DNA of 63,419 nucleotides, from IMG/VR virus record IMGVR_UViG_3300043425_000902, positions 1 to 63,419 of that record, one strand, 5' to 3'. The stretch comes from a virus. The translations under genes were made by a program, and so were the position numbers. Below the pieces are notes generated by a model that saw nothing but the letters and a program-made list of their open reading frames with translations, ran no database searches and had not been told where the DNA came from. Below are positions 2,042-61,831 of this stretch, piece by piece (position 1 is the stretch's first letter; each line of letters begins with the position of its first letter).

Positions 2042-2310
2042 GCATGGCCCAGACAATCGCGGAGGTGTGCAACCGCCACCGGATCAGCGTGAAGGACTTC
2101 TACGGCCCCAGCCGTTGCCAGCGCTTCGTGCTGGCGAGGTGGGAGGCCGTGTACACGCTCCGCCAGATCCGGTTCTACGGCCCCGACGGGCCGGGGACCG
2201 GCCCTCACCGCTACAGCTACGGCGTCATCGCGCGGCAGATGCGCCGTGACCCGTCCACCATCCGGCATGCGTACGCGCAGATGAAGCGCCGCCTTGCTGA
2301 AACCCAATAG
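2038..2310 (+). CDS. DnaA domain IV-like DNA-binding protein
   Basis: 90 residues. Two parts resemble the C-terminal DNA-binding domain of DnaA: VKDFYGPSR with a following AR..A helix, and SYGVIARQMRRDPSTIRHA at about residues 60-79, which matches the shape of the DnaA signature helix (IA..F.RDH(S/T)TV.HA). There is no ATPase domain, so it cannot act as a full initiator. Known stand-alone DnaA-C proteins bind DNA; here it may recognise DnaA-box-like sites or modulate host initiation (inference). It lies directly upstream of the HTH regulator and the primase-helicase, with a promoter embedded in its 3' end. Confidence 0.7.
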   Translation: MSMAQTIAEVCNRHRISVKDFYGPSRCQRFVLARWEAVYTLRQIRFYGPDGPGTGPHRYSYGVIARQMRRDPSTIRHAYAQMKRRLAETQ

Positions 2311-2322
2311 GTGCGGTAACGT
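2294..2322 (+). promoter_or_regulatory. Putative promoter with GGTGC half-operator, replication block
   Basis: TTGCTG (2294-2299), 17 bp, TAACGT (2317-2322). The spacer holds GGTGC at 2310-2314, in the same position relative to the -10 as in the promoter family at 58466, 59283 and 61367; the left half-site is degenerate. It lies 30 bp upstream of the HTH gene. Confidence 0.5.
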
Positions 2323-2351
2323 CCGCGCCACATGAACAGGAGCAACACGCC

Positions 2352-2573
2352 ATGACTTCCATGAACGGCATCGACCGCGCCATTGCCAGCGCCGGGTCGA
2401 TCTCCGCCCTCGCCCGTAAGTTGGGCGTCTCGCATCAGGTCGCCAACCGATGGCAGAAGCGGGGCTTCGTGCCCGCCAAGCGCGCCATCGAGATCGAGCT
2501 GCACTACGGGATCCCGGCGCGAGACCTCGTCCACCCCAGCCTGCTGCAGATCGCCTCCCTGATCGCGTCCTGA
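2352..2573 (+). CDS. Cro/YdaS-like helix-turn-helix regulator
   Basis: 73 residues forming one compact HTH domain. SISALARKLGVSHQVANRWQ (about 17-36) fits the Cro/YdaS pattern of helix, turn and recognition helix, and RAIEIELHYGIPARDLVHP matches the following helices of the YdaS_antitoxin family. AGGAG lies shortly before the start. As the first gene after the promoter at 2294, and the only small repressor-like protein seen, it is the best candidate to bind the repeated GCACC-N6-GGTGC operators (inference). Confidence 0.75.
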   Translation: MTSMNGIDRAIASAGSISALARKLGVSHQVANRWQKRGFVPAKRAIEIELHYGIPARDLVHPSLLQIASLIAS

Positions 2574-2580
2574 GTCCCTG

Positions 2581-4647
2581 ATGTCCGCCAGCGTGTCCAC
2601 GATCACACCACACGTGCGGAGGGTTGAGGCGCCGTCTGACCTGCGCGAGCTTCCCGGCTGGCTGTGCTGGCGGAACGAGCAGGTGCCGGGCGAGGAGAAA
2701 CCCCGCAAGGTGCCCTACTACGCCTCCGGGCAGCGTCGCCACGGCAAGCAGGGCGCGCCGGACGACAGGGCCAAGCTCGTGTCCTTCGCCGCAGCGCGCG
2801 ACGCCGCGTCGCGCATGGGCATGGACGGCGTGGGTCTGGCCATGCTGCCGGATTTCGGCGTCACGGCCCTCGACTTCGACTACTGCGTCGACGCCGCCGG
2901 GCGCCTGCCGCCGGAGGTCGAGAGCATCGTCAGCCAGACGTACGCCGAGTACTCCCCGTCGGGGAAGGGTGTGCGGGCCTTCATCAAGGGGCAGCTTGGC
3001 AACCAGAAGAGCCACCGGGACGCGGCCAACAGCTACGGCTTCGAGGTCTTCTCGTCCTCGGGGTACGTGACCTTCACAGGCAACACCCTGCCCTTCACCG
3101 AGGCGTTGGGTCTGGAAGACCTCGTCGCGCCGATGAACGACGACGTCGTGAGCCTCTTCAGGCAGCGCTTCGGTGACGGCGCCACGTCGCAGCGCGACGC
3201 GCCCGGCGCGCCCGGCGCGGACCCCTTCGAGACCTTCGAGCCCACCCTCGGCCTGACCCTCGACGAGGCGCGTGCGTACCTGTCCGACCTCGACCCCAAC
3301 ATGGGCCGCGAGCCGTGGATGCAGGTCGCCATGGCCCTGCATCACGAGTTCGGGGCGGAGGGCTTCGAGCTTTGGAACGACTGGTCTCAGGACGGCGTGC
3401 GCTACCCCGGCACGCATGCTTTGTCGCAGCAGTGGCTGAGCCTCGACAGGCGGCAGCCCGCCGGGCGCCCCATCACCATGCGCACGGTCAAGAAGATGAG
3501 CGCCGAGGCGCGCCGGGAGGCGGGTCTGGAGCCGCGAAGCCTGATTGAGACGCACGCCGAGGCCACGGACACCGACCCGGGCCGCATGTCGTCGAGCGAC
3601 GACTGGAAGGGGAAGTACCGCGTTTACACGGGCCTTGAGTTCTCTCAGCGCCCGCCCATCGACTGGATGATCAAGGGCGTCCTGCCCGACAACGCAGACC
3701 TCGTCATGATGTACGGCGCCAGCGGTTCGGGTAAGTCCTTCGTCGTCCTCGACATGGTCATGTCCCTCGTGCGGGGCGTGGACTGGAGGGGCAGGCGCAC
3801 GAAGCGTAAGCGGGCCCTGTACATCGCCGCGGAAGGCGGAGGGGGTGTCTCGCAGCGCCTGCGCGCGTACAGCCTCCACCACGGCGTGAAGCTCGACAAC
3901 CTGCCCCTCGGCATCATTCACGACGCGCCGAACCTCATGGTGGAGGAGGACGTGTCGGCCCTCGTCAAGGCCATCCTCGACGCGGGCGGCGCCGACCTGA
4001 TCGTCATCGACACGCTGGCTCAGGTCACGCCCGGGGCCAATGAAAACAGCGCCGAGGACATGGGTCTGGCCTTGAAGCATGCGCGGGCCCTGCGCCGCGC
4101 GACGGGCGCCGTCATCCTCCTTGTGGCGCACACGGGCAAGGATCAGGCCAAGGGGATCCGGGGGTGGTCCGGCCTGCACGCCGCGACGGACACGGCGATC
4201 GAGGTCGTCAAGCCGGAGGGCGAAGACGAGGACGACGCGCGCCTGATCCGCATCGCCAAGCAAAAGGACGGTCGCGACGACCTGTCGTGGGGGTTCCGCT
4301 TCGAGACCGTCGTCGTGGCTTTCGACAGCGACAACGAGGAGGTCACGTCTCTGGTGGTCGTCGAGGCCGACCCGCCGACGCGCACGCCCTCCGGCCAGCC
4401 CCGCAAGCTCGGTGCGTGGGAGGAGGCCGTCATGGACTACATCGCGTCCTTGGGCCTGTCCTTCTCCGGCCTGAGCATGGGCGACCTGCTTGACGGCGTC
4501 AGGGACAGCATCCCGGCTCCGGCGCCCGGAGAGCGCGACGTGCGCAGGCAGAACGCGATGCGCGCCGTGCGCTCCCTGTGCAAGGGCCACGACGCGCCCC
4601 TGATCCTCGAAAACGGTTTCGTCACTTTGGGTGCATTTCCCTCTTGA
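2581..4647 (+). CDS. Bifunctional primase-helicase (AEP-like primase, PriCT, RepA-like AAA)
   Basis: 688 residues. The N-terminal part (about 15-175) looks like an archaeo-eukaryotic-type primase/polymerase, with an acidic ALDFDYCVD motif near 95, SPSGKGVRAF near 126 and EVFSSSGYVTFTG near 150. A PriCT-type helical domain follows (about 210-300; YLSDLDPNMGREPWMQVAMA). The C-terminal half is a RecA-fold helicase of the RepA/AAA_25 type: Walker A GASGSGKS (about 380), Walker B DLIVIDTLAQ (about 471), LLVAHTGKD and GWSGLHAATDTAIEV. It probably unwinds DNA and lays primers for the polymerase at 7303. The last codons overlap the next promoter. Confidence 0.85.
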   Translation: MSASVSTITPHVRRVEAPSDLRELPGWLCWRNEQVPGEEKPRKVPYYASGQRRHGKQGAPDDRAKLVSFAAARDAASRMGMDGVGLAMLPDFGVTALDFDYCVDAAGRLPPEVESIVSQTYAEYSPSGKGVRAFIKGQLGNQKSHRDAANSYGFEVFSSSGYVTFTGNTLPFTEALGLEDLVAPMNDDVVSLFRQRFGDGATSQRDAPGAPGADPFETFEPTLGLTLDEARAYLSDLDPNMGREPWMQVAMALHHEFGAEGFELWNDWSQDGVRYPGTHALSQQWLSLDRRQPAGRPITMRTVKKMSAEARREAGLEPRSLIETHAEATDTDPGRMSSSDDWKGKYRVYTGLEFSQRPPIDWMIKGVLPDNADLVMMYGASGSGKSFVVLDMVMSLVRGVDWRGRRTKRKRALYIAAEGGGGVSQRLRAYSLHHGVKLDNLPLGIIHDAPNLMVEEDVSALVKAILDAGGADLIVIDTLAQVTPGANENSAEDMGLALKHARALRRATGAVILLVAHTGKDQAKGIRGWSGLHAATDTAIEVVKPEGEDEDDARLIRIAKQKDGRDDLSWGFRFETVVVAFDSDNEEVTSLVVVEADPPTRTPSGQPRKLGAWEEAVMDYIASLGLSFSGLSMGDLLDGVRDSIPAPAPGERDVRRQNAMRAVRSLCKGHDAPLILENGFVTLGAFPS
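3622..3629 (+). repeat. Over-represented strand-biased octamer GTTTACAC (13 sites)
   Basis: Plus-strand sites start at 3622, 10237, 17813, 23189, 33976, 51817, 54819, 55883, 57911, 59894 and 60847; minus-strand sites occupy 30566-30573 and 58656-58663. The following base is usually G. Sites fall in different reading frames (VYT, RVN, FT), within genes on either strand, and in intergenic DNA at 55883 and 57911. At about two-thirds GC fewer than one copy would be expected by chance. Role unknown. Confidence 0.75.
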
Positions 4648-4672
4648 CGTTGCAATCTTACGGGTGCATAAC
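4644..4672 (+). promoter_or_regulatory. Putative promoter with operator inside the spacer
   Basis: TTGACG (4644-4649), 17 bp, CATAAC (4667-4672). The spacer carries GCAAT-CTTACG-GGTGC (4652-4667), a variant of the repeated GCACC-N6-GGTGC operator. The -35 overlaps the stop codon of the primase-helicase. It drives the genes from 4693 onward. Confidence 0.6.
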
Positions 4673-4681
4673 CCGGGGCAA

Positions 4682-4695
4682 GGAGACCTGACATG
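4682..4695 (+). repeat. Repeated ribosome-binding/start cassette GGAGACCTGACATG
   Basis: The 14-mer GGAGACCTGACATG, which includes the start codon, occurs exactly nine times: 4682, 4917, 53947, 54271, 55903, 57632, 57930, 59337 and 62286. Close variants lie at 58225 (GGAGGCCTGACATG), 58512 (GGAGATCTGACGTG) and 61439 (GGAGACCTGACCATG). It marks the start of accessory and early genes on the + strand only; late genes have ordinary, varied ribosome-binding sites. Confidence 0.9.
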
Positions 4696-4914
4696 ATCAA
4701 AGCGGACAGCGTCGGAAAGCTGGTGGCGAACGCCAGACCCGACACGCGACGCCGGGACTATTTCCGGGCGCTGGACAACCGGGACCTGCTGCTTCACGGC
4801 AAGGAGGCCCTGACCTACACCGACGAGTACGTCTTCGCGCTGATCGAGCGCTTGGAGGACCTGCTCGACCGACAAGACTATCCCGCCCGATGGGCTGAGT
4901 ACTACGAGGACTGA
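4693..4914 (+). CDS. Hypothetical protein (73 aa)
   Basis: 73 residues starting at the GGAGACCTGACATG cassette. The start (MIKADSVGKLVANARPDTRR) resembles that of the next protein (IKANSVGELVGRIRA), so the two share a short N-terminal motif. The rest is a charged helix with RLEDLLDRQDYPARWAEYYED. First gene after the promoter at 4644. Function unknown. Confidence 0.7.
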   Translation: MIKADSVGKLVANARPDTRRRDYFRALDNRDLLLHGKEALTYTDEYVFALIERLEDLLDRQDYPARWAEYYED

Positions 4915-4927
4915 AAGGAGACCTGAC

Positions 4928-5278
4928 ATGTACGAGATCAACATCAAGGCCAACAGCGTCGGAGAGCTGGTGGGGCGCATCCGCGCCCTTGCCGCCGAGT
5001 TCGGCGCCTTCGGGGGCGTCGCCGTGTCCGCGCCCGTCGAGGCCCCGCCCACGCCGACCGCAGCCGTGCCTCTGGCCGTCTCGACGCCGACCGTCGAGGG
5101 GGAGGTGCCGTACGCGGACGTGCGCAACGCCTTCCTGCGCCTCGCCACCCTCAAGGGGCGCGACGTCGTCGGGGAGGTCCTGAAGGCTCACGGCGCCACC
5201 AAGACGGCTCAGGAGTTGGAGCCCTCGTCGTACGCCGCCGTGCTGGCGGACATCGAGCAGAGGCTGGCGGCGGGATGA
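4928..5278 (+). CDS. Hypothetical protein (116 aa)
   Basis: Begins at the GGAGACCTGACATG cassette. A short N-terminal motif (IKANSVGELV) is shared with the preceding protein. An Ala/Pro/Val linker (about 40-60) leads to a helical C-terminus with VRNAFLRLATLKGRDVVGEV, in which the AFLRLATLKGRD stretch resembles small phage recombination-accessory proteins. It overlaps the DUF2800 nuclease by ATGA, so the two are probably cotranslated. Role unknown. Confidence 0.65.
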   Translation: MYEINIKANSVGELVGRIRALAAEFGAFGGVAVSAPVEAPPTPTAAVPLAVSTPTVEGEVPYADVRNAFLRLATLKGRDVVGEVLKAHGATKTAQELEPSSYAAVLADIEQRLAAG

Positions 5279-6393: not shown

Positions 6394-6415
6394 TGTGCGA
6401 AAAGGAACGTGCAAA

Positions 6416-6976
6416 ATGAGCGTGCGACTGATCATTCGGAATGTGCGAATTGCTTTCCCGGCCATCTTCGAGCCGCAGGCTGTCGGTGACGGCGAACCCG
6501 CCTACGGCGCCAAGTTCATCGTCCCCACCGACCACCCGCAGATCGACGAGATCCGCAAGGCCGTGCGTGACGTGGCCAAGGGCCAGTGGAACGACAAGGC
6601 GGACTCTGTCCTCAAGCTCCTGACTGCGGACAAGAAGACGGCTTGGGTCGAGGGGCCCTACATCAACAAGGACGGAGAGCCCTACGAGGGGTTCGAGGAC
6701 GCCTTCCACCTGTCCTCGCGCAGCGCCAAGACGCGCCCGACGGCCTACGACAACGCCAACAACCCTGTGACGTCGGCGGACGGCCTGATCTACAGCGGCG
6801 CCTACGTCGATGCGTCCGTCGAGGTCTACGCGCAGGACAACAAGTGGGGGCGGCGGATCAACTGCGGCCTGCGCGGTGTCCGGTTCGTGAACCACGGCCA
6901 GAGCTTCGGCGGCGGGGCCCCGGCTGGCGCCGACGAGTTCGGCGCTCCGGTCGAGGTTGAGGACTCCTTCGTCTGA
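6416..6976 (+). CDS. DUF2815 family protein (probable ssDNA-binding)
   Basis: 186 residues from the ATG with AAGGAAC upstream. MSVRLIIRNVRIAFPAIFEP, YGAKFIVP, KTAWVEGPYINKDGEPYEGF and YSGAYVDASVEVYAQDNKWG match the phage DUF2815 family, regarded as OB-fold ssDNA-binding or annealing proteins. The C-terminus is acidic (FGAPVEVEDSFV), as in many SSBs where the acidic tail recruits partners. It sits directly after the DUF2800 nuclease and shares one base with the gapR start. Confidence 0.8.
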   Translation: MSVRLIIRNVRIAFPAIFEPQAVGDGEPAYGAKFIVPTDHPQIDEIRKAVRDVAKGQWNDKADSVLKLLTADKKTAWVEGPYINKDGEPYEGFEDAFHLSSRSAKTRPTAYDNANNPVTSADGLIYSGAYVDASVEVYAQDNKWGRRINCGLRGVRFVNHGQSFGGGAPAGADEFGAPVEVEDSFV

Positions 6977-7236
6977 TGCCGGAGGCTGGCCACAACTCCG
7001 TCGCGGCTGATGAGCTGAAGAAGCTCATGGACCGCATCGAGACGCTCGACGACGAGCGTGTAGCGCTCGGAGAGCAGATCCGCAGCGTCTACATGGAGGC
7101 GAAAGCCGCGGGCTTTGACACGAAGCCCATCCGAAAGCTCGTCGCCCTGCGACGGCGCGATCGGGGCCAGATCCTTGAGGATAAGGCCATGCTCGAGCTT
7201 TACGCATCCGCCCTCGGCTGCTTGGACCTCGTCTAA
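6976..7236 (+). CDS. gapR: GapR-like DUF2312 nucleoid-associated protein
   Basis: 86 residues. GHNSVAADELKKLMDRIETL, then a coiled coil and AAGFDTKPIRKLVALRRRD, fit the DUF2312/GapR family. In Caulobacter crescentus GapR binds AT-rich, overtwisted DNA and helps topoisomerases ahead of replication forks. Family members are almost confined to Alphaproteobacteria and their phages, which makes this the best host marker in the window. The phage copy sits between the SSB-like protein and the DNA polymerase, consistent with a role at the phage fork. AT-rich palindromic DNA near 53285-53400 and 57430-57480 could be its targets (inference). Confidence 0.85.
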   Translation: MPEAGHNSVAADELKKLMDRIETLDDERVALGEQIRSVYMEAKAAGFDTKPIRKLVALRRRDRGQILEDKAMLELYASALGCLDLV

Positions 7237-7244
7237 ACAGCCCC

Positions 7245-7283: not shown

Positions 7284-7302
7284 ACTCCCTTCACAGGCGC
7301 CC

Positions 7303-11221: not shown

Positions 11222-11250
11222 ATGCACTTGACGCGGTGCATAGCACCTGT
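11222..11250 (+). promoter_or_regulatory. Putative promoter/operator upstream of 11286 gene
   Basis: ATGCAC (11222-11227), 17 bp, ACCTGT (11245-11250). The operator GCACT-TGACGC-GGTGC spans 11224-11239, and a second inverted pair GGTGC-ATA-GCACC covers 11235-11247. It aligns base for base in spacing with the promoter at 61367-61395. Confidence 0.55.
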
Positions 11251-17210: not shown

Positions 17211-20200
17211 CGCGTGTCTCCCGCCTCGAACTCCCGCTGCGCTTGCATGAACGCGGGGATCTTGTCTGGGGTCAAGATGTCGTCCAGCTTCATGCCGGTC
17301 TTTTTGCCGACGTACGCCTTGTAGGCCGCACGCTGCGCAGGCGTGTTGAAGGGGTGCGGCGCGTAGCGCTCGATCACGGCGTCAAGGGTCTTGCCCGCGA
17401 AGCGGTTGCGCAGCAGCGCCTCGTGCGCCGCGTCGCCGTTCTCTAGCGTGTCGAACTTGGCGAGGCCCGTCTTTTCGTCGAAGCCGACGAAGCCCGGCTG
17501 CTTGGCCACCCACGGCGACTTGCTCTTCTTCCCCTCGGCGTTCTGCACGATGTACATGATCGCGCCGCGGTTGTTGAAACGGTTCGTGGCGGCCCCCGCC
17601 GCGGGCGTGTCCTCGGGCGGCATGCCGAAGAAGTCTCCCAGCTCTTTCTCGCGCTGCTCGGGGGGCTTGTCGTCTTCCTCCGTGATCTGCGGCGCGGGCA
17701 CGTCGGGAGGCGCCGTCGGGGACGGGCCCGGCGTGCCGCCGACGTACGTCGCGGTCGGCTGCACCGTGCGCCGGGGCAGGGAGCCAAGGAGGCTGGACCC
17801 GGAGACGATGGCGTTTACACGGCGCATGAACGCGCGGGCAGGACCCTCGCCGTACATCTTTTGGATGCGCGCCATGACCTCGTCGGTCTTGGCCGGGTCG
17901 AGCAGCTCCTGCGTGACCCGCACGGCCTCCTCGCGGCTCATGCCGCGCCCCTCAAGCCAGCGCAGGGCTGGGCCGAGGACCGTGAGCCCGCGCGTGGCGC
18001 GCTCGGCGGCGTTCGCGGCGGTCGGCAGCTCGTCGACGCCTCCGGCACCCCGCGCGGCGGCGGTGGACTCTCCGGCGGCGAGGGCGGCGCGGCTGGAGCG
18101 GTTGACGAGGGCTGTGGCGCGGCGGATGAGCGTCGCCGCCGCCTCAGGGCCCATCAGGGCCTCGACGTTCTCGCGCAGCCGGGCGTCGGTGCGCAGGGCG
18201 CTCAGGAACGACTCCGCCCCCTCGCTCGTGCCGACGGCCTTGGTAGCGGCGTCGCGCCACGCCACCAGAGCGGCCCGCCTCTCACGCGGCGCGAGGTTGG
18301 CGACAGCCGCGGCGAAGTCCGGCGACAGGATGTTGGGCAGGTTCCCGCCGAGCTTGAGAGCGCCGAACAGGCCTTCCGCCTCCTTGGCGGTCTGCGCCGC
18401 GACGGGGAAGGCCTCTTGCTCCTGAGCCGTGAACAGCAGGTCGCGCAGGGTCGGGTTCTCGCGGCTCCACTTGTCCCAGCGGCTGCCGGTCTTGGCCTCG
18501 TCGGGGCCGAGGATCTGCGCCTGAGCGTCCTTGCGCATGGCCTCCCACTCGGGGCTGCCTGCGCCGAGCCTGTCCCTCGCCGCCTTGAGGTTGGTGATGC
18601 CGGTCGGGCTCTTGTCGGTCAGGCTCCCGAACAGCAGGCCGCGCGCACGGCCCGGGTCGTTCTCGACGAGGGCGGCCACGGTCGGGTCGTTGACATAGTT
18701 GCTGTAGTAGTCGCGCGCCTTGAGGATGGCGTCGCGCGTCTTGGAGACGGCCTGCGTGTTCCCTGAGAAGCGCCCCGCCATGTCCAGCCGGTCGACGAGA
18801 CCGTCGAGGGTCCGCCGCGCCTTGCCTGCCGCCGTGGCGGCGGTGGTTCCCGGCACGGCCCGCTCGATCTGCGACAGTTCGCGGCGAAGGCTGAAGATGT
18901 CCGTCGAGGTGAGGGACGACATCTGCGGCTGCTCCAGCCGCTCAAGCGCCTTGAGCACGGGCGTGATCTCGTCAGGCACGACGGTGTAGTCGCTGATCGC
19001 CTCGCGCAGGGCGGCGTTGAACTCTCCGACCGTGGTGGGGCCGATGCCGCGCGCCGTGGCGACCTCAGGGGCGCCGCCGGGAACGATGCGCATGTAGTGC
19101 GTCTCGCCTTCGGTGTACGGCACGCCGAGGTCGTCGAAGCGCTGCCGGTAGTACTTCTCCTCCTGCGGCGTCATGCGCTTCCAGTTGCCGACGGTCTCGC
19201 CGTCGTCACGGGACAGCTGGACGGTGGCGGGCTCCTTGGCGATGGCCGCTTCGTCGTAGGCCTGATCCATGGCGCCCTTGGCGGCGTTGGCCTCGGCCTT
19301 GAGCCTCTCCGCAAAGGCCGACGCGGGCTGGCCCAGCTCGTCGACCTGCGGCGTAATGCCGCGCTGCGCGGCGCTCACGGCGCCTTCCGCCTCCGTGCGC
19401 AGGGCCGCGCCCGTCACGCCCGGAGCCTCGGGGCTGATCTCGCCCGTGGCGCGAGCGCCAGCGGCCTGCGTGCCGGACGGCCCGCGCACCTCTTCGTTGT
19501 ACTTCCTGAACATGCCCGACGTGTCAGGCTCCGCGGCGCCCGTCCGGCGCGCCAACCTCGACGTGATGCCCTCATCAAGGACATCGACGGGCCGGGCCTC
19601 GACGCCAACCTCGGACAGCGCGCCCCGGGTGAGGCCCATGTCCTCGGTGTTGGCGACGGCAGGCCGTCCGCCGGGCTGGACGCTCTCACGCGCAGCGCGC
19701 GTCAGGGCCTCTTCGGGCGCTCCGAAGGCGGCGGTGTTGGCTGCCCACGGCTTGCCCATGAGCGCACCCACGCCCGTCATGGCGCCAATGCGCTGCAGGC
19801 TCGGCGTCTCTCCGCTGTACGCCTGACGTATGGCCTCGGAGCCTCCGCTCAGGATGGCGGACAGGGCGGTGGGCCCCAGCTGCGTCGTCGGGCGCCCGCT
19901 CACGAGCCCGGTAAGCCCTTGCCCGACGGCGGTGGCTGTCGGGTACCGCTCGGTGTCGAGACGCTCTTGGATGGGCGACCAGCCGAGCTTTTCCTGCAGC
20001 CAGTACGGCATGCGCTCCAGCAGTTCGCCCTGTCCCTGCAGCCCCGCGCCGTATCCCGATGCGCCTCCGATAACCGCACCCACCAGCGCGCCTGTAGGCG
20101 CCGTAACTTCGGCGAACGGGCCGCCAAGCATGCCCAGCGCTCCGCCCGTGCGCGCGCCCACCCCAGCCCCGGGAATGGCGGAGAGCATGGGGATCATAGA

Positions 20201-49259: not shown

Positions 49260-51767
49260 TCAGCCTCCGTTGGGGTTGGGGTTCTGCGAGGGGTTCGCCG
49301 TCTGCCCGTGCTCGATGTTGAGCAGGGCCAGATCCATCGCCGTGCGGTTGTCGGCGTCGTTCATCGAGATGCGCGACTGCACGTCGAGCTTGAGCCGCGT
49401 GTCCTCGCGCTGCTCCTGCATCTGCTCCAGCTCTCGCTGCATGTTGAGCTTGGCCTGCGCCACCTGCTGGTCGAACTGCAGGCGCAGCTGGTCCATCTGG
49501 TGCTCGAACTGCATGCGCTGCTGGTCCATCTGCGCCTTCATCTGGTCGGCCTTGGCGCGCCGCTCGGTCTCGGCCTGCGCCGCGGCGATCGCCGGGTCCG
49601 GCGGAGGTTGGGGCGCCATGGACTGCATCATCTGGATGGCTTGCATGATGACGGGGTTCAGGGCGCTGAAGGCCTCGTTCGCGCTCTTCGACACCGTCGT
49701 GGCGGCCTCGGACAGGAGCCGGTCGAAGGCCTGCTTGTCCTCGACGCTCTTGTTGTTCTTGGCCGCCTCGCCGAGGTCCATGCCCGTGGCCTCGTTGCCC
49801 AGCTCGTAGACCTGCTGGGCGTACCACATGGCAAGGTGCTCCTTGATGTGGTTCAGCACGCCGGGCAGGAACTGCTGGGCGATGAGGGGGTTGCCGCCCA
49901 GCGTCGGGTTCAGCAGGTAGGTCAGGTGCGTGTTGAGGTGCGCGACGTGGTCCTGCTGCGGGAAGGCGACGACGGGTCGGCCCATGGTCATGGCCACGTT
50001 CTCGGCGACCGCGTTCTGCTCCTGAGGCTCGACGGGCGGGACCAGCAGGTCCTCGGCGTTGGGCACCTTGAGCGTCTCAAGGATGCGCTCCTCGACCTTG
50101 CGCGCGTTGTAGAGCATCGGCATGGCCGCCGCCCGCTGGGCGATGGTCTGGATCTGCGCGATGCGCTGGGTCTCGGAGAAGATGTTGGGGTCGCTGACGG
50201 GGACGACGTCCATCGGCCCGGAGAAGTCGGCCTGCTTGGCGATCTCCTCGCCGACCTCCTCCTTCTGCTTCGCGTCGTCGAGGTACATCCCGTTGAGGCG
50301 GTGCAGGATGCCCAGCAGGCGCGCCATGGCGTTGTGCAGGCGCATGTGGATGGCGCTGAACACCACCATGCCCTGCTCGATCTTGGCCATGGTGGTGCCG
50401 ACGGGCACGTTGGCGTTGCCGTCCGACACGTCGTCCATGGTCGTGCGCACGACGCCCTTGCCGGAGTCGACGAGGAAGCCGAGGAGCTGGAACAGCACGC
50501 CGGAGGGCGGGTTGAACGGCAGGGGCATGGCGATCTTGCGGACGTCGTCCACGTTGATGCCGCCCTCGATCTCCGTCACCTGCGTGGGTTGGATCTCGAC
50601 GCTCTGCCCGCCGATCCCGGCGCCCTTCAGCTTCAGCATGCTCTGGCTGTTGCTGATGTGCGCGGAGTCGAGGAGCGCCCGCAGGGCCCCGGTGGCCGCG
50701 GCGGACAGGCCGCCAATCATGTGCGTGATGCCGATGGGGTACGCCCCGCGCCAAGGCACGAAGGGGAACTCCACGAACCACTGCAGCTCTTCGCGGCTCT
50801 CGTCGTCCTCGTCCCAGTTGCGGTAGATGCTCAGCACCTCCGACGTGGTCTTGTCGACGGTCAGGATGTACGGCGCCGGGCCGTCCTCGATGTCGAGGTT
50901 GGTGTAGATCTCGAAGACCGTGCGCAGGCCGTCCTCGTTGAAGGCGCTCTCCGTGCGCCCCTCGATCTTGTCGTTGGCGATGTCGGCTTTGCTGCGCTCG
51001 GGGTCCGACGAGGGGGGCAGGATGTCCACGTCGCGGTACATGCCGCTCGTGACGCGCTCCTCGTAGTCCTGAGCCGTCAGGTACTGCACGTGGGTCTTGC
51101 GCTGCGCCGTGTAGAAATTGGTCGCCGCAAACGGGATGAACATCTCGTCGACGGCCACGAACAGGAACTGGGGCCGGTTGCGCGCCTCGTTCCACGTCAC
51201 CTTCATGTACTGCACGCCGCTCAGGGGCACCTGCGTGAGCAGCTGCTCCAGCTCGGAGCGGAACTCGTGGCACTGGGTCGTCAGCTGCCAGTTCATGAAG
51301 TCGGTCTTGCGGCGCGCCTTCAGGACCTTGTCGCGCGTGACCCTGCCCGGGATGAAGTCCTTGACGGGCCCCGCGGCGGGGAACAGCTCCTTGATGGCGC
51401 GGGACGAGAAGTCCACGCACGCCTCGGTCAGGAGGGGATGCACGACCTTGCTGGCGCCTTGGAACTGGGCGCCGCCCGGCGCGTCGTCGCCGAGGCCCGT
51501 GCGTCGGATGCCCTCCTCGTACTGCTCGTCGCGCTTGGCCCGCGCGTCCTTGTCCTTCGTGATCAGGTCAAGGTACTGCGTGGCGATCTTCTTGAGCACA
51601 CCCGGGTCGAGGGTCTCGGCGAGGTTGTCGAGGAAGCCTTCGGAGGGCTCGTCGCTCTCCTCGTCGCCCAGCGTGACGATCGCACCGCCGTCCGGCGTGT
51701 ACTCAACGCCGTCGTCTTCCTCGGTGACGGGGATGTAGGCGCCTTCGTCGAGATCGTCAGACGGCAT
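49260..51767 (-). CDS. Portal (head-tail connector) protein
   Basis: 835 residues, at the large end for portals. An acidic N-terminus (about 1-50), then KKIATQYLDLITKDKDARAK, GAQFQGASKVVHPLLTEACV and DFSSRAIKELFPAAGPVKDF. Later GVQYMKVTWNEARNRPQFLF, PAPYILTVDKTTSEVLSIYR and YPIGITHMIGGLSAAATGAL agree with podovirus portals. The C-terminus is a Gln-rich coiled coil (MQQQRMQFEHQ-type). It overlaps terL by 11 bases. Forms the dodecameric channel through which DNA is packaged and ejected. Confidence 0.85.
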   Translation of the reverse strand: MPSDDLDEGAYIPVTEEDDGVEYTPDGGAIVTLGDEESDEPSEGFLDNLAETLDPGVLKKIATQYLDLITKDKDARAKRDEQYEEGIRRTGLGDDAPGGAQFQGASKVVHPLLTEACVDFSSRAIKELFPAAGPVKDFIPGRVTRDKVLKARRKTDFMNWQLTTQCHEFRSELEQLLTQVPLSGVQYMKVTWNEARNRPQFLFVAVDEMFIPFAATNFYTAQRKTHVQYLTAQDYEERVTSGMYRDVDILPPSSDPERSKADIANDKIEGRTESAFNEDGLRTVFEIYTNLDIEDGPAPYILTVDKTTSEVLSIYRNWDEDDESREELQWFVEFPFVPWRGAYPIGITHMIGGLSAAATGALRALLDSAHISNSQSMLKLKGAGIGGQSVEIQPTQVTEIEGGINVDDVRKIAMPLPFNPPSGVLFQLLGFLVDSGKGVVRTTMDDVSDGNANVPVGTTMAKIEQGMVVFSAIHMRLHNAMARLLGILHRLNGMYLDDAKQKEEVGEEIAKQADFSGPMDVVPVSDPNIFSETQRIAQIQTIAQRAAAMPMLYNARKVEERILETLKVPNAEDLLVPPVEPQEQNAVAENVAMTMGRPVVAFPQQDHVAHLNTHLTYLLNPTLGGNPLIAQQFLPGVLNHIKEHLAMWYAQQVYELGNEATGMDLGEAAKNNKSVEDKQAFDRLLSEAATTVSKSANEAFSALNPVIMQAIQMMQSMAPQPPPDPAIAAAQAETERRAKADQMKAQMDQQRMQFEHQMDQLRLQFDQQVAQAKLNMQRELEQMQEQREDTRLKLDVQSRISMNDADNRTAMDLALLNIEHGQTANPSQNPNPNGG

Positions 51768-53259
51768 ACGGGTTCACGATCCTCTTGGGCGCGACGTACC
51801 CGTCGCTGGCAGACTTGTTTACACGCATTACACCCGAAATCAGGCCCTTGTCCATAAGCAGGCGCGCGGCTTGGCTCACGGAGTCGACGTAGTCGTCGTG
51901 CTTGATCGACTTGTCGCCGCGGAAGGCGCACACCTGCTCCAGCATGGGCTCGACCCACGTCTTGGGCTTGCCGGGGCGCTTCTCGCTCTCCGGCAGCCAG
52001 AACAGGCCCTTCTGGAAGAGGTGGCTGACGACGTGCAGGCGCGACGTCTTGTCCGCCCGGCCCGGGTTGTAGGCGTAGGCTTGGATCCCCTCGCGCTCCA
52101 GAGACTGGCGCAGGCTGATGCCGCTGCCTTTGTCCTCGATGAGCACCATGTCCGGCTTGCGCCCGGCGCCGGTCTGGCGCACCGGCCCAAGCAAAGGCTG
52201 GATGACCGGCTCGTCGGCGTCGTCGCCGTACGACACGTTCAGCTCCTTGCGGACGCGCTTGAGCAGGTCGGGCAGGCCGAGGTGCTCGCTCCAGCAGTCG
52301 AGGAGGAGCGCCTTCATGACCCCCTCGTGCCAGAAGACGCCCCAGACCGTGCAGGCCGATGCGTCGGGGTCGTGCGTGCGCCGGTCGAGCGTCTTCTCCG
52401 TGAAGGCCGTGTCGAGGGACATGACGATCCACTCGAACTTGGGCAAGGGCTTGCTGGCTGGCCACATCTTGAACCACGACCGGGCGATGATGCCGCCCTC
52501 CTCGGCGTCGATCAGCTCACCGTACAGCTCCTGACGACCGAGGGTCGTGCCCTCGTACTGCGCGATCTGCTCATAGAACGACTCCGGCAGGTTCGCGCGG
52601 TTGTCGAAAGTCGAGCCCGTGGTGATGACCCGGCCCTTCTTCGCCTTCGTCAGCCTGCGCACCAGATCGCGCGGCTTGGGCGTTGTCGTCCAGACCACGC
52701 GGGGCATGGCGCCGAGGCGCAGGCCCATCATGGCCATGTCCCACGTCTCTTCGCCCTTCGTCCACGCCGCCAGCTCGTCGCCCCAGATCCGGGCGAACTG
52801 CGGGCCGCGCAGTCGCTCCGGCTCCTCCGCCGAAAATCCGCGGATGATCGCCGGTTTGCCCGACTCCGTCCTGATCGTGATGATGAGGTTGGTCTTGTTG
52901 TAGTCGAGCACCAGCTCCTGAGGCATGATGTGGAGCAGGCCAGCGGGCCCCTCGAAGCACGTGTGCCGCACGTCGTTCAGCGTCGGCGCGATCACGGCGC
53001 TGGGATGAGCGAGGGGGTCATAGTAGGCGTCGTGCAACAGCCATTGGGCCCCCGTGAGGGTCTTGCCGAAGCCTCGACCGGCCATCAGGCCCCACTCGAC
53101 CCATGGTCCTTCGGGCGGCTCCTGCTTCTCGCGGGCCGTCAAGGCCCACTCCATCTGCCATTTGATGGCCACCACCTGCTCGATCGGCAGTTGGCCCGAG
53201 GAAACCGCGTCAAACAGCGTTTTACGCTGCTCTTCCGTGAGCTTTTTGAAGGGTAGCAT
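51757..53259 (-). CDS. terL: Terminase large subunit
   Basis: 500 residues from the ATG preceded by GGAG. ATPase: Walker A AGRGFGKT (60-67), Walker B IWGDE (Asp161/Glu162), and coupling motif VVWTTTPKP (about 188-196). RNase H-like nuclease: SLDTAF (Asp283), VLIEDKGSG (Asp376) and HDDYVDSVSQ (Asp455/Asp456). It cuts the concatemer and drives DNA into the head. It is the first gene of the late region; an upstream extension in the same frame has no ribosome-binding site and runs through an AT-rich control region. Confidence 0.93.
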   Translation of the reverse strand: MLPFKKLTEEQRKTLFDAVSSGQLPIEQVVAIKWQMEWALTAREKQEPPEGPWVEWGLMAGRGFGKTLTGAQWLLHDAYYDPLAHPSAVIAPTLNDVRHTCFEGPAGLLHIMPQELVLDYNKTNLIITIRTESGKPAIIRGFSAEEPERLRGPQFARIWGDELAAWTKGEETWDMAMMGLRLGAMPRVVWTTTPKPRDLVRRLTKAKKGRVITTGSTFDNRANLPESFYEQIAQYEGTTLGRQELYGELIDAEEGGIIARSWFKMWPASKPLPKFEWIVMSLDTAFTEKTLDRRTHDPDASACTVWGVFWHEGVMKALLLDCWSEHLGLPDLLKRVRKELNVSYGDDADEPVIQPLLGPVRQTGAGRKPDMVLIEDKGSGISLRQSLEREGIQAYAYNPGRADKTSRLHVVSHLFQKGLFWLPESEKRPGKPKTWVEPMLEQVCAFRGDKSIKHDDYVDSVSQAARLLMDKGLISGVMRVNKSASDGYVAPKRIVNPYAV

Positions 53260-53317
53260 GGCGCTCCAAGCCCGTTTGGGCCGAATTACGACCGTTTTTT
53301 GGTCTCTGCAAGCCCCT

Positions 53318-53333
53318 GCACCGGAAAAAGTGC
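53318..53333 (-). promoter_or_regulatory. Operator-like site upstream of terL (one mismatch)
   Basis: GCACC-GGAAAA-AGTGC; on the minus strand GCACT-TTTTCC-GGTGC, the same variant as the operator at 11224. About 60 bp upstream of the terL start. Confidence 0.45.
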
Positions 53334-53354
53334 GTTTTTGGCGTAAAAACTGCA

Positions 53355-53370: not shown

Positions 53371-53412
53371 GGGCGTTTTTGGCTGATTTTTAGGGGGGCG
53401 GGGTTGCGGGGA

Positions 53413-53428
53413 GCACCTTACAGGGTGC
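53413..53428. promoter_or_regulatory. Exact copy of the phage operator GCACC-N6-GGTGC
   Basis: GCACC-TTACAG-GGTGC lies 154 bp upstream of terL. Good -10 sequences are not seen at the expected spacing on either strand, so it may act as a distal operator or control a divergent promoter. Confidence 0.5.
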
Positions 53429-53847
53429 ACCTATTGGTCATTTTTGAAAAAATTGGTGAGTGGGGGTGGAACAATTCTCAGGGCACCCGGAAACGGGGGT
53501 ATGGGGTCCACAGCATCTCGCCCCCAGCCCCCTCCCAGCCCGGCCCTGCACCCGAAAAGCTCAATGATATCAGCCACTTGGCCAGCTGCGCCGAGCCCAG
53601 ACCCATGGCTCACGGCCACGCTGCCCTGCGCCATCGGCCTGCAGCACGCAGGCTGCAGCACACCGCACCGGAGATCGCCACCGGCTGGGTGCAGGTGGGA
53701 TGTGGCAGTTGGTAATGGGTTACCTGAGGCAGGCTGCCGCTGGCTGGGCGTGGGAGGAGACCCCCAGCCCCAACCCGGCCGGATGGGAGCCCCTCACCAC
53801 ACCCAAGCCCTTGATAACACTGGACTTCCTGCCTGCCCTACGCGCGC

Positions 53848-53862: not shown

Positions 53863-53957
53863 AATCGGCTGCATCTTTTTGGTTGCAGACATGTTCAAAC
53901 GGGTCCATACGTTGGCTCCCGGCTGTACCGGGGCCACACAACCTATGGAGACCTGAC

Positions 53958-55830: not shown

Positions 55831-55874
55831 GAAACAATTCGTGATTGGCACCCGCTTGGGTGCAGGAGTACAGA
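55831..55874 (+). promoter_or_regulatory. Phage promoter/operator, member with 18-bp spacer
   Basis: Upstream element GAAACAATTCGTGA (55831-55844), -35 TTGGCA (55845-55850), 18 bp, -10 TACAGA (55869-55874). Operator GCACC-CGCTTG-GGTGC at 55848-55863. The GTTTACAC octamer follows at 55883. Confidence 0.7.
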
Positions 55875-57047: not shown

Positions 57048-57268
57048 CGCGCGACCTCCTCCGTGAACGAGGGTTCCAGCATACCACACCCCCACCCTCC
57101 ACCGCTACCCGCCAAGGGCTTCCTTGACGACGGGGACCTGCACCCTTCTGCTTGCTACCTGTCCGGGTCCTCTGCACCCTGTCCTGTGCACCCCCTCCCG
57201 CCCCTCTCCCCCTCCCACCCCGCTCCCCTCAGCCCCTGCCCCAGCCGCCCACCGCCCCGCCAACACCA

Positions 57269-57421
57269 GCAACACCGGGCCTGAGCACCCCGTGCAACAC
57301 CGCAACACGAGGGGCCCCCTCTAAAGAGGGGCCCCCCGACGTGTTGCAGTGGTGTTGCACTGGCGGGGTGCCTGCGGGTCTTACAACACGTTGCAACATG
57401 TTGTGCCGTGTTGCGTGTTGG
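57269..57421. repeat. GCAACAC iterons around a long interrupted palindrome
   Basis: GCAACAC starts at 57269, 57294 and 57302; the reverse form GTGTTGC starts at 57341, 57352 and 57408, with GTGTTGG at 57415. The arms 57292-57309 and 57340-57360 are inverted copies (identical apart from a three-base insertion). They enclose a hairpin of CCCCTCT/AGAGGGG, extended by GGGG/CCCC, at 57311-57338. A separate 10-bp palindrome CAACATGTTG lies at 57394-57403. Candidate initiator or terminase binding site. Confidence 0.65.
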
Positions 57422-57461
57422 CACCCAGAAAAGCGCCACCAAAAACGGCACCTTTTATGTT

Positions 57462-57522
57462 ACAATTCGTGATCAAAATCTGCACCTTCCCTGTTGCACC
57501 CACCCCCTCCCACCTGTACAAC
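57462..57522 (+). promoter_or_regulatory. Promoter with ACAATTCGTGA element, no inverted operator
   Basis: ACAATTCGTGA (57462-57472), -35 TTGCAC (57494-57499), 17 bp, -10 TACAAC (57517-57522). GCACC occurs as a direct repeat (57482 and 57496), but no GGTGC partner is present, so its control may differ from the other members. Confidence 0.55.
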
Positions 57523-57642
57523 ACTCTCAGAGGCGACGCGGTGAGACAGCCACGTCGATGTCCTCGACCCCCGCTCCGGGGCCGGGCTGCCCGGGACAGG
57601 AGGCGAGGCGGGGCGCTCTCCCCGCCGCCTTGGAGACCTGAC

Positions 57643-57909: not shown

Positions 57910-57940
57910 CGTTTACACGACCTCACACAGGAGACCTGAC

Positions 57941-58234: not shown

Positions 58235-58235
58235 C

Positions 58236-58457: not shown

Positions 58458-58465
58458 AGAAAGTC

Positions 58466-58494
58466 CTTGCACCCCCAGGGGTGCGGGTGTACGG
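58466..58494 (+). promoter_or_regulatory. Phage promoter/operator
   Basis: -35 TTGCAC (58466-58471), 17 bp, -10 TACGGT (58489-58494). Operator GCACC-CCCAGG-GGTGC at 58468-58483. The upstream element reads GAAGAAAGTCC here instead of GAAACAATTCGTGA. Confidence 0.7.
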
Positions 58495-58522
58495 TCTGAC
58501 TGTGAACGCAAGGAGATCTGAC

Positions 58523-58807: not shown

Positions 58808-59256
58808 TGACTGACGAAGAGCTGGACAAGGCGCGAGCCGCCGAGGCTTGGCGTGTTTTCTCGACCAGCGATGCCGACTTTACAATCGAGGCGCTTGGGG
58901 AGATCGCCGCCCGCCTAGCCCGCGAAGGCTGGACGCCGCCCGTTGACCCGGACCTGCTGGTAGCGCGGGAGATCGCGGCGAAGGGGTGGGGCGAAGTGGG
59001 TTTGGGTTTGTCCACGGCTGAAACCGCCGCCCTCGTCACACAGACCCTTGCGGGGAGCTACGACACACATCTGTTTGTCCGCGCCGCCCTCGCCGCCTAC
59101 AAGGCCGGGCGAGAAGCCGAGGCCGAGCGGGCGAAGGTGCTGCTGGCGGCGCTGGACGACATGCAGAAAAACAGCATGACCGTTTGGAGCGCCCGCGCAA
59201 GCGCCGCCCTCGCCGCCTACAAGGCCGGAAAGGCGACTGGAAAAGGCCCTCGCTGA
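58804..59256 (+). CDS. Hypothetical protein with AALAAYKAG repeats (150 aa)
   Basis: ATGA overlap with the previous gene. MMTDEELDKARAAEAWRVFS, FTIEALGEIAARLAREGWTP, then two copies of (A)ALAAYKAG (about 93-101 and 137-145), and after the stop the DNA runs on into a third decayed copy (GCTGACTACAAGGC). This suggests a local duplication with a frame change. Helical overall. No family recognised. Confidence 0.6.
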   Translation: MMTDEELDKARAAEAWRVFSTSDADFTIEALGEIAARLAREGWTPPVDPDLLVAREIAAKGWGEVGLGLSTAETAALVTQTLAGSYDTHLFVRAALAAYKAGREAEAERAKVLLAALDDMQKNSMTVWSARASAALAAYKAGKATGKGPR

Positions 59257-59267
59257 CTACAAGGCTT

Positions 59268-59311
59268 GAAACAATTCGTGACTTGCACCTGAACGGGTGC
59301 GGAGCTACTTT
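59268..59311 (+). promoter_or_regulatory. Phage promoter/operator, canonical member
   Basis: GAAACAATTCGTGA (59268-59281), -35 TTGCAC (59283-59288), 17 bp, -10 TACTTT (59306-59311). Operator GCACC-TGAACG-GGTGC at 59285-59300. Confidence 0.75.
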
Positions 59312-59347
59312 CTGACTGTGGCCACTGGGGCCGCAAGGAGACCTGAC

Positions 59348-59518
59348 ATGGACAACTACACCGCCGTCGGCCTTGCCGAGGGTTTCATCGAGACGGACGA
59401 CGAGACGCAGGTCGTCGCCGCATGGCAGCACCTGCACGACACGGGCCTCGCCTACCAGCTGCAGGGCTGGTTCGGGCGCACCGCCCAGCACCTCCTCGCG
59501 GAGGGGGTGATCCAGTGA
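59348..59518 (+). CDS. Small hypothetical protein (56 aa)
   Basis: GGAGACCTGACATG start. MDNYTAVGLAEGFIETDDET, QVVAAWQHLHDTGLAYQLQG and a WFGRTAQHLLAEGVIQ end. Helical with Trp/His. The WQHLHDTGLAYQLQGWFGR pattern is common in short phage genes. Function unknown. Confidence 0.6.
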   Translation: MDNYTAVGLAEGFIETDDETQVVAAWQHLHDTGLAYQLQGWFGRTAQHLLAEGVIQ

Positions 59519-59931
59519 TTGAACAGCACACGCCGGGGCCTTGGCGCGTCATCCATTATGATGCAGGAGATAGACCCTATCGAGACCATAACGGTCCGTG
59601 CCCCGGCATTTTTGCATCCGAAGAACAGGATTGCAGCATAGTCCATTGGGATGGATTCAAACAAAAGCATTGGTCATCCGCAAACGGGAATCAAAAACAG
59701 ATAGAAGCCAACGCCCGCCTGATCGCCGCCGCGCCAAGCCTCCTGAAGGCTCTGGAGGATCTGCTGGCCAGTGACTTGGTCCGGCTTGGGTGGCTGCCGT
59801 TGCCCGGCACGCCCGACTTCCCTGAAATGAGCCTCAGCCTTCGTGAGCGCGCCGCGCCGATCTTCGCCGCCCGCGCCGCCATCGCCGCGGCGCGTTTACA
59901 CAACCCCCAAACACAGGAGAGCGGGGAATGA
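59515..59931 (+). CDS. HTPGPW-type phage hypothetical protein (138 aa), AT-rich middle
   Basis: GTG start in a GTGA overlap. EQHTPGPWRVIHYDAGDRPY and NARLIAAAPSLLKALEDLLA are the hallmarks of a widespread phage protein of unknown role. The middle DNA (59550-59710) is much more AT-rich than the flanks, with codons such as ATA, CAT, AAA and TTT, suggesting transfer from a lower-GC phage. A GTTTACAC octamer lies at its 3' end. Confidence 0.75.
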   Translation: MIEQHTPGPWRVIHYDAGDRPYRDHNGPCPGIFASEEQDCSIVHWDGFKQKHWSSANGNQKQIEANARLIAAAPSLLKALEDLLASDLVRLGWLPLPGTPDFPEMSLSLRERAAPIFAARAAIAAARLHNPQTQESGE

Positions 59932-60281
59932 GCACTGAAATGGATGTCGCCAAGGCGCTGGTCCGAACGGCCCTCGCCAAGGGGTACAGGGTCGTCATCT
60001 GGGACGGCTTCAGCGAGACCGACGACGGTCTGCGGGACATGCTGTACCTGATGCCGCCCGGGGAGGTCCCCGACGCGGTTCTGGAGGACGCGCTGGGGCG
60101 CACGGAGGAGGACAGCATCTACCTCACCACGCCGGACGGGAAGCACCTCGGCACCCTGTGGCTGATCTGGGGCAACGACCCGAGCGGCGAGGAGCTGGTC
60201 GCGGACATGACCTCCACCGACGCCGCCCGGGACGTCGTCAACGACGTCAACCGCTCCTTTGGCTTCGAGGTGTACGAATGA
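59928..60281 (+). CDS. Hypothetical protein (117 aa)
   Basis: ATGA overlap. [60 protein letters not shown]. Ends RSFGFEVYE. Acidic alpha/beta protein. No family recognised. Coupled to the pentapeptide gene downstream by another ATGA. Confidence 0.6.
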
Positions 60282-60949
60282 CCCACATCACGTACACAGC
60301 TGGCGGGGGTGGCGGTGGCGGGATGTCCACCGTGCCGGGCCCCATCGAGCGCGACAGGGACAGGTACATCCGCTACCTCGCCGTCAACGCGTGGATCAAC
60401 GGCGACAGGGTGTACCTGCTGAAATACGCCAACCTGCAGGGCGCCGACCTGTCGGACCTGAACCTGTCGGGCGCACACCTGAGCTGCGCCAACCTCCGCG
60501 ATGCGTGTCTGGTTCGCACAAACCTGTCGGGCGCAATTCTGGGTCACGCCGACCTGTCAGGCGCGCAGCTCAACGGCGCAAACCTGAAAGCGGCCCAGCT
60601 GCAGCACGCCAATCTGCAGGGTGCGCGGCTGGATGCCGCCATCATCCCCTTCGCAGGGTTCTACGGGGCGAAACTTGAGGGGAGCACCTTCCTCGAGGCT
60701 AGATACCTCAAAGAGGCGAACCTGTGCGGAGCGAGCTACTACGGCGAGCTGCGCCGGTACGCCATCAGCGCAGATCGCGGGGACTACGTGTTCCACCTGC
60801 TGAAGTACGACGACGGCCCGCCCAAGGTCCGCGCCGGGTGCCGCCTGTTTACACTCTCCGAGTACCGCAGGCACACGTGGTCCTATTTCGGGTCGCGCAA
60901 ATGGCGCCAGACCCGAGCCATCCTGAAACTGTTCGAGGCATACAAATGA
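60278..60949 (+). CDS. Pentapeptide-repeat protein, second paralogue
   Basis: 223 residues; the start could also be the ATG at 60323. A Gly-rich lead (TAGGGGGGG) is followed by [18 protein letters not shown] and about 25 A(N/D)L-type repeats (about 65-155). The tail has [34 protein letters not shown] and a terminal ILKLFEAYK. The tail repeats the one of the 358-residue protein at 15 (VFHLL/TFHLF, DGP-KV-AGCR). A GTTTACAC octamer lies in the tail (RLFTL). Function unknown. Confidence 0.85.
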
Positions 60950-61353
60950 CCCGCAAATATCGCAGATGGACTGAAGCCGAGGACCTGACCCTGCGCACGC
61001 GGTACGCTGCGGGGGACAGCTACGAGGACATCGCCCTCATCCTCGACAGGGAGCTGCACTCCGTGCGCTGCCGCGTGTATGACCTGCGATGCACGGATCC
61101 GAACGACGAGGCTCTCGCGCGCCGCAAGACGCGCCCCAAGCCTCGCCTCGCCCTGTCGTGCGCTCCGCCCCATCAGGGGCCTCAGGAGCCGCCCCCTGCG
61201 GCGCCCTCTCGCCCGGGCGGGTGGCTCAGCGAGGCGCTGGACGACGTGCGGTACAGGCTCGACGTCCTGCGGCAGCAGGAGGCGGACATCGCCTCGGCCC
61301 GGGCCGCTCTTGAGCAGACCCTGTCCGTTCTGGAGGGCCTGCGCATCGGCTGA
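60946..61353 (+). CDS. Myb/GcrA-like DNA-binding protein
   Basis: 135 residues, ATGA overlap. [42 protein letters not shown] is a SANT/Myb-type or GcrA-like helix-turn-helix with the R-S-V-R-C-R recognition helix. A disordered Pro-rich linker ([16 protein letters not shown]) and a C-terminal coiled coil (about 100-132) may give dimers. A sequence-specific DNA-binding role is likely. It could control the phage or mimic a host regulator (inference). Confidence 0.7.
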
Positions 61354-61395
61354 AACAATTCGTGATTTGCACCCATATAGGTGCAGTGCTACTGT
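61352..61395 (+). promoter_or_regulatory. Phage promoter/operator, canonical member
   Basis: GAAACAATTCGTGA (61352-61365), -35 TTGCAC (61367-61372), 17 bp, -10 TACTGT (61390-61395). Operator GCACC-CATATA-GGTGC at 61369-61384. It overlaps the stop codon of the Myb-like gene by two bases. Confidence 0.75.
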
Positions 61396-61447
61396 CTGAG
61401 GGTGGGGAGCGGGGCCGTGGTGGCCCTGCCCCACGGGAGACCTGACC

Positions 61448-61795
61448 ATGACCCAAGTGTTCAAGAAGTCCGACGCCCTCACGCACTGGGCCGCCCTGCC
61501 CAAGGACGCCCCGCTCCGCCCCCACGCGATCGCGTACAAGTCGCGCGGCTCGACCTACGGCCACGACGGGGTGCGCGTCGAGGGGTCCCGGGACTTCATC
61601 GACGCCGTCCTCGGGCGTCTCTCCGACCTGCTCGACATGGAAAGCGACGACACCCGGATCAGCATCTCGTACCAGACGGTCGAGGCGAGGCCGGGCAAGG
61701 ACCACAACGGCGGCGAGTACGTCTGCTACCTCAAGTTCCACGAGCGGGGGCCTGAGGCGCGCATCGCCAACCGCGTCTTTGGACGCGCCGCCTGA
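61448..61795 (+). CDS. Hypothetical protein (115 aa)
   Basis: Start at a GGAGACCTGACCATG variant. MTQVFKKSDALTHWAALPKD, APLRPHAIAYKSRGSTYGHD, RVEGSRDFIDAVLGRLSDLL and a strand pair ISISYQTVEARPGKDHNG. Alpha/beta composition, with a conserved-looking GVRVEGS strand. Expressed alone from the 61367 promoter. Function unknown. Confidence 0.65.
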   Translation: MTQVFKKSDALTHWAALPKDAPLRPHAIAYKSRGSTYGHDGVRVEGSRDFIDAVLGRLSDLLDMESDDTRISISYQTVEARPGKDHNGGEYVCYLKFHERGPEARIANRVFGRAA

Positions 61796-61802
61796 AGGCG
61801 CA

Positions 61803-61831
61803 TTGCACCCCACCCGGTGGGGTGCTACCTT
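61803..61831 (+). promoter_or_regulatory. Phage promoter with 21-bp palindromic operator
   Basis: -35 TTGCAC (61803-61808), 17 bp, -10 TACCTT (61826-61831). GCACCCCACC and GGTGGGGTGC form perfect 10-bp arms around one base (61805-61825), longer than the standard operator. The upstream element is absent. Confidence 0.7.

Follow-up and report, generated by a model that had tools for sequence, protein, structure and literature searches.

Genome layout and a family of palindromic sites

The viral sequence IMGVR_UViG_3300043425_000902, analyzed here over its entire length of 63,419 nucleotides (hereinafter, the window), encodes a 73-amino-acid helix-turn-helix (HTH) protein (P0001; 2352..2573, + strand; recognition helix SHQVANRW) directly upstream of a primase/helicase gene, and contains a set of palindromic sites that are highly likely to be the operators of this protein, an orphan Cro-type repressor. 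According to simple gene prediction combined with family searches, the + strand carries the replication and small early genes (approximately 53.9-63.4 kb plus 1-11.2 kb), whereas the structural genes occupy 11.4-53.3 kb of the - strand; the TerL gene (51757-53259, - strand) starts at 53259, and about 7 % of the genome is non-coding. Among cultured phages, RW, RLK, KcrB and GB2A of Caulobacter (proposed Riverwalkvirus, PMC11053796) are the nearest (TerL identity 59 %). No near neighbors at the DNA level were found among phages, and the search for prophages in species genomes recovered only TerL relatives that are distant or reside on contigs of metagenome-assembled genomes.

In an unbiased scan, GCACC-N6-GGTGC emerges as the palindrome with the strongest enrichment in the window (second-order Markov expectation 0.17), with five exact copies (53413, 55848, 58469, 59285, 61369), all of them non-coding, where dinucleotide shuffles average 0.25-0.3. 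The first-pass annotation of this sequence had suggested a scan for the 10-base core with one mismatch. At that setting, however, there is no enrichment against dinucleotide shuffles (9 sites seen, 6.5 expected), and with two the counts are again at the level of chance (83 versus 84.6), so that the looser members proposed at 2294, 4644 and 11222 derive no support from counts. The signal is restored when 12 symmetric positions are used instead of the core: TGCACC-N6-GGTGCA with at most one mismatch occurs at eight sites (11223, 53412, 55847, 57173, 57481, 58468, 59284 and 61368), all non-coding, against 0.225 expected and a maximum of two in any of 200 shuffles. The sites at 57173 and 57481 are new to the list. 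Five of the eight sites lie in recognizable promoters of the early region, and a further promoter contains an operator with two mismatches (61804), a distribution that fits a genome-wide regulon.

The promoters share a tight register. The pattern TTGCAC-N17-TA is found five times in the window (57494, 58467, 59283, 61367 and 61803), with a sharp peak at spacer length 17, and the composite pattern T[TG]GCACC-N6-GGTG[CG]-N4,5-TA also occurs five times, compared to none in 100 shuffles. In four of these promoters, all on the + strand, the left half-site overlaps the -35 element and the palindrome occupies the spacer: TTGCAC-N17-TACGGT (58467..58495; operator 58468-58485), TTGCAC-N17-TACTTT (59268..59311 with the upstream element GAAACAATTCGTGA; operator 59284-59301), TTGCAC-N17-TACTGT (61352..61395, again with GAAACAATTCGTGA; operator 61368-61385, matching at 12/12 positions) and TTGCAC-N17-TACCTT (61803..61831; operator 61804-61821, two mismatches, at a longer palindrome, GCACCCCAC-CCG-GTGGGGTGC, 61805-61825). 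In the fifth (57459..57522, + strand, with the element GTTACAATTCGTGA at 57459-57472), the -35 of TTGCAC (57494)-N17-TACAAC is instead the right half-site, altered to GTTGCA, of the operator TGCACC-TTCCCT-GTTGCA (57481-57498). A sixth promoter, TTGGCA-N18-TACAGA at 55845 (55831..55874, + strand), follows GAAACAATTCGTGA (55831-55844) and has its operator at 55847-55864. The promoter plan outlined in the first-pass annotation accordingly holds for 55845, 58466, 59283, 61367 and 61803, with spacers of 17-18 bp, but 2294, 4644 and 11222 fit it poorly.

The remaining sites are more heterogeneous. At 11222, which had been counted as a clear member, there is a good operator, TGCACT-TGACGC-GGTGCA (11223..11240, + strand; one mismatch; upstream of gene 11286), but neither the TTGCAC and -10 of the family nor another clear promoter. 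The operator TGCACC-CTGTCC-TGTGCA (57173..57190, no strand assigned; one mismatch) lies between terS and the early genes. Upstream of terL are AGCACC-TTACAG-GGTGCA (53412..53429) and an operator-like sequence with two mismatches (53317..53334), both without an assigned strand. Two weak operator-like sequences on the + strand, each with two mismatches, were found at 4651..4668 (non-coding, upstream of gene 4693; not significant alone) and at 53870..53887, just downstream of a TATAAT -10 (53851). The repressor gene itself is preceded by a candidate promoter, TTGCTG-N17-TAACGT (2294..2322, + strand), with a degenerate operator at 2298-2315 that matches at 9/12 positions; by sequence it is at chance level, and it becomes plausible solely through relatives.

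The overlap between half-sites and the -35 hexamer brings up the possibility that the sites are merely host-type -35 elements completed by chance, and in a transcript, arms of 5 bp with a loop of 6 nt could form hairpins or terminators. Taken together, these explanations are very improbable. A -35 element has no need for a second symmetric half-site, and eight sites against 0.225 expected argue against chance. Most of the sites lie upstream of the -10 and hence are not transcribed from that promoter, no T-run follows them, and in right-register sites the GTTGCA form breaks one pair of the stem; on these grounds, the hairpin or terminator explanation was rejected.

The Cro-like protein and its co-variation with the operator

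P0001 is Cro-like according to several lines of sequence and model evidence. It matches the Pfam family YdaS (1e-10) and, above the cut-off, Phage_CI_repr, and scores 30.0 bits with P22_Cro, just under the cut-off of 30.2. The best sequence match in PDB is Xfaso 1 Cro (E 8e-9), and profile comparison also retrieves the solved structures of N15 Cro and P22 Cro. An AlphaFold model built from sequences of the window and IMG/VR only has a predicted local distance difference test (pLDDT) score of 93.5, and the best Foldseek match of this model is 3bd1 (template modeling score 0.71-0.84), followed by 6on0, the N15 Cro-operator complex. The PDB, Foldseek and Pfam matches thus agree on a predicted Cro fold in a short HTH protein. 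The label 'YdaS toxin' that P0001 might receive is a family name only; the case that YdaS/T act as regulators has been made in a published letter (PMC5917428).

Searches of viral contigs with TerL and the repressor yielded some 230 loci. When the non-redundant ones were sorted according to how the recognition helix ends, the operator was found to change with the helix. Phages with the NRW helix contain 12 GCACC-N6-GGTGC sites (0.32 expected) and no TGCAA-N8-TTGCA, whereas those with a Y[NQASTY]W helix, GB2A included, contain 68 TGCAA-N7/8-TTGCA sites (27 with N8 and 41 with N7; approximately 0.5 expected per given spacing) and a single GCACC-N6-GGTGC (1.07 expected). The unbiased palindrome scan ranks the same two families first, GCACC-N6-GGTGC in the pooled NRW phages and TGCAA-N8-TTGCA in the relative G017. 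The Y-class sites also use a half-site as -35: with the left half-site in this role, TAnnnT peaks at spacer 17, often at the same promoter positions. In GB2A, TGCAA-N8-TTGCA is the top palindrome outside a tandem-repeat gene (5 versus 0.01-0.03 expected), and in its TTGCAA-N17 early promoters the -35 is the right half-site. In five Y-class phages (L277, L278, L295, L326 and L332), two overlapping TGCAA operators are followed by a conserved block, TTTTTTACTCGTAGAAGATAATTTTTCC.

The helix positions that differ, N32 and R33, align by eye with Asn31 and Lys32 of lambda Cro, both of which make base contacts, and their change would be consistent with a shift to an inner half-site rich in GC. Because the operator letters vary together with the helix, P0001 is very probably the binder, and the choice of the HTH protein at 2352 as the candidate in the first-pass annotation gains strong support from its Cro-like sequence and predicted structure and from this co-variation.

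The possibility that a host regulator or another phage protein binds the sites, the match to the Cro clade being a by-product of shared ancestry, has to be weighed here because the helix and operator switch falls on few branches and because a GapR-like DNA-binding protein (6976-7236; PF10073, 8e-24) is widely shared as well, being encoded in many relatives including GB2A. However, from one phage to the next the site changes together with the Cro-like helix, and it also precedes the Cro-like gene. Several of the site-bearing records yielded no GapR-like protein, and GapR is not known to bind specific palindromes. Two other proteins, a small Myb-like one (60946-61353; phrog_323, D5-like transcriptional regulator) and a DnaA-C-like one (2041), are missing from most site-bearing phages and were dismissed as binders for this lack of co-occurrence. 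Among the relatives searched, the Myb-like protein is nearly private to the window phage. Overall, binding by a protein other than the Cro-like one appears quite unlikely.

The relatives also inform individual sites. Promoters of the window's plan recur in five other loci (L005, L008, L137, L138 and L141). The terL-upstream operator, proposed in the first-pass annotation and exact at 53413, recurs at this place, 79-132 bp before terL, in eight other non-redundant phages, but it lacks a clear family promoter: candidate -10s in the relatives occur at inconsistent spacings. This operator may serve the divergent early/late region. The claim that a promoter of the same family precedes the repressor's own gene rests mainly on relatives because the window's site is degenerate. 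A perfect operator is present within the repressor-gene promoter TTGACG-N17-TACCGT of G011, and G017/L165 and L161 contain CGCAA-N8-TTGCA (one mismatch) before this gene, inside TTGCCG-N17-TA. In G021, the orthologous gene has a promoter with a degenerate cognate operator, as does the 'transcriptional repressor' gene of GB2A (gp049; 18618), where a TTGCAA-N17-TA promoter at 18563 retains one good half-site; in GB2A, as in the window, the primase/helicase gene directly follows.

A second element stands beside the operators. As first noted, it is exact as GAAACAATTCGTGA at 55831, 59268 and 61352, and its core, ACAATTCGTGA, is exact at 57462 within the GTTACAATTCGTGA form at 57459. In the 4.2 Mb of loci, ACAATTCGTGA was found only beside operator-promoters of the window (and of L136, a near copy of the window), L005 and L006. 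With distances taken from the -10, its center lies at about -43.5 (59268 and 61352; about 1 bp further at 55831), or at about -63.5, two helical turns away, at 57459 and in 2/3 cases in L005. By analogy with class II and class I activators, whose placement this resembles, ACAATTCGTGA is possibly an activator site.

A proposed shut-off of the early program

We infer the following mode of action. A dimer of the orphan Cro-type repressor (2352-2573) would bind the 18-bp palindrome TGCACC-N6-GGTGCA. In most of the early promoters found, all but the first base of the -35 TTGCAC comes from the left half-site, and the remainder of the operator lies in the 17-bp spacer (the right half-site being used at 57494), so that the bound repressor would exclude RNA polymerase. 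As the repressor accumulates in the lytic cycle, the early genes, its own promoter included, would be shut off together. The position of the operators over the -35 and the 17-bp spacer points to such exclusion, and since they occur at numerous early promoters, and in relatives also at that of the repressor gene, a coordinated, self-limiting shut-off is to be expected. Judging from sequence, the Cro-like protein very probably binds all of these operators as a brake, and the phage-wide regulon first suggested for it is supported by the predicted Cro-like fold, the co-variation and the sites before orthologous genes.

Of the two effects originally envisaged for a protein bound in the spacer, blocking or bending, the former is preferred. 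Promoters activated by MerR-type regulators have spacers of 19-20 bp, whereas those in the window are 17 bp in five cases and 18 bp in one, which does not fit a MerR-type spacer-binding activator.

Activation could nevertheless be involved in another form, with the Cro-like protein acting as an activator or a dual regulator that, for example, activates some promoters from about -39.5 and represses others. The operator is indeed centered near -39.5, not far from where class II activators are placed, in GB2A, in L005 and at 57481 of the window, and the conserved 53412 site is located near terL and the late region without a clear repressible promoter. On balance, this appears unlikely, if somewhat less so than binding by an unrelated protein: in most window promoters the operator covers the -35 and an optimal 17-bp spacer, where a dimer should exclude the polymerase, a protein of 73 residues could hardly accommodate an additional activation domain, and the PDB relatives of P0001 are Cro repressors.

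Several observations weigh against the repressor reading itself. The operator in the window's repressor promoter is degenerate (9/12), and the sites at 53412, 57173 and 11223 are without a clear promoter. In the tree, the NRW phages form one group, to which the Y-type L142 is sister, and the helix switch falls on few branches, so that the co-variation is strong yet has not arisen independently many times. L142, which combines a Y-type helix with GCAA-type sites, contains too few of them to decide, and a fragment from the NRW clade, L216, has no exact site in the available stretch. L144-type phages, with the helix YVW, contain almost no sites of either kind, and a palindrome scan of this class gave no convincing candidate.

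No S24 repressor (PF00717), tyrosine integrase (PF00589) or resolvase-type recombinase (PF00239) was detected in the window, GB2A and seven relatives (some of them fragments), with controls matching, so that neither the CI partner nor the integrase of a lambdoid cI/cro switch was found in these genomes. Phages of the window type are thus probably virulent, although lysogeny by some other route is conceivable, and an orphan Cro that shuts off the early promoters would be the most economical reading.

Some further features of the window deserve mention. A 126-bp end repeat (1-126 and 63278-63403) lies inside a pentapeptide-repeat gene, so that the assembly may be collapsed at that place; pentapeptide-repeat genes are located at 15-1091 and 60278-60949. 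The intergenic region 57250-57530, between terS (-) and the early genes (+), contains many CAACAC/GTGTTG words and short inverted repeats and could be a replication origin or another regulatory region. An identical ribosome-binding-site leader, GGAGACCTGACATG, precedes nine + strand genes (4682, 4917, 53947, 54271, 55903, 57632, 57930, 59337 and 62286), and the small protein encoded at 62461-62817 combines a Rap1a-like domain (PF18602, 1e-11) with an apparent signal peptide. Rfam and tRNA searches of the window gave no matches.

Relation to known repressor systems

A broader picture, which we advance tentatively as plausible but somewhat less likely than not, is that in a large family of virulent alphaproteobacterial phages, most of them uncultured, a CI-less orphan Cro serves as the single brake of the early program, with the half-site doubling as -35 and with mutually incompatible repressor-operator codes, and that a second regulator activates from ACAATTCGTGA (about -43.5/-63.5) in the window phage and those nearest to it. 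The operator family provides a regulatory map readable from sequence for a poorly studied phage group in which a cultured member, Caulobacter phage GB2A/RW, permits tests. The matched helices and operators form a natural series useful for studying the evolution of DNA recognition where every site of a genome has to change at once, and the question arises why a Cro repressor is kept by phages in which no lysogeny genes were found.

A single repressor that acts on many near-identical operators at or near early promoters across the genome is familiar from the phiC31 repressor, with its conserved inverted repeats (CIRs), and from P1 C1, and the window resembles these systems in this respect. The latter, however, are lysogeny repressors of temperate phages, larger or unrelated, whereas the window encodes a 73-aa Cro with a half-site that doubles as -35. 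The immunity repressors of L5-type mycobacteriophages likewise have sites throughout the phage genome, but their stoperators are asymmetric, bound by monomers and also stop elongation (PMC9283540), unlike the symmetric, non-coding sites of the window, which lie mostly in promoters.

The Caulobacter phages RW, RLK, KcrB and GB2A have the same gene order around the repressor and their own TGCAA-N8-TTGCA family in early promoters, and differ from the window in the half-site letters, the helix and the use of the right half-site as promoter -35; the text of the Riverwalkvirus paper mentions neither promoters nor a repressor (PMC11053796). With the Cro repressors of Xfaso 1, N15, P22 and lambda, the window family shares the short HTH protein and the palindromic operator that overlaps promoters, as well as the co-variation of recognition helix and half-site that has been described for Cro proteins (Hall et al. 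2005, as cited in PMC4488713). Unlike these systems, the window has no detected S24-type partner or integrase, and in place of a few OR/OL sites, or of the single site of PY54 Cro on the PY54 genome (PMC4488713), its operators are many and spread over the early region. The probable regulon of the window is well developed but in principle of an ordinary sort, in which a Cro-type repressor would act on operators throughout the genome and a half-site doubles as the -35 element.

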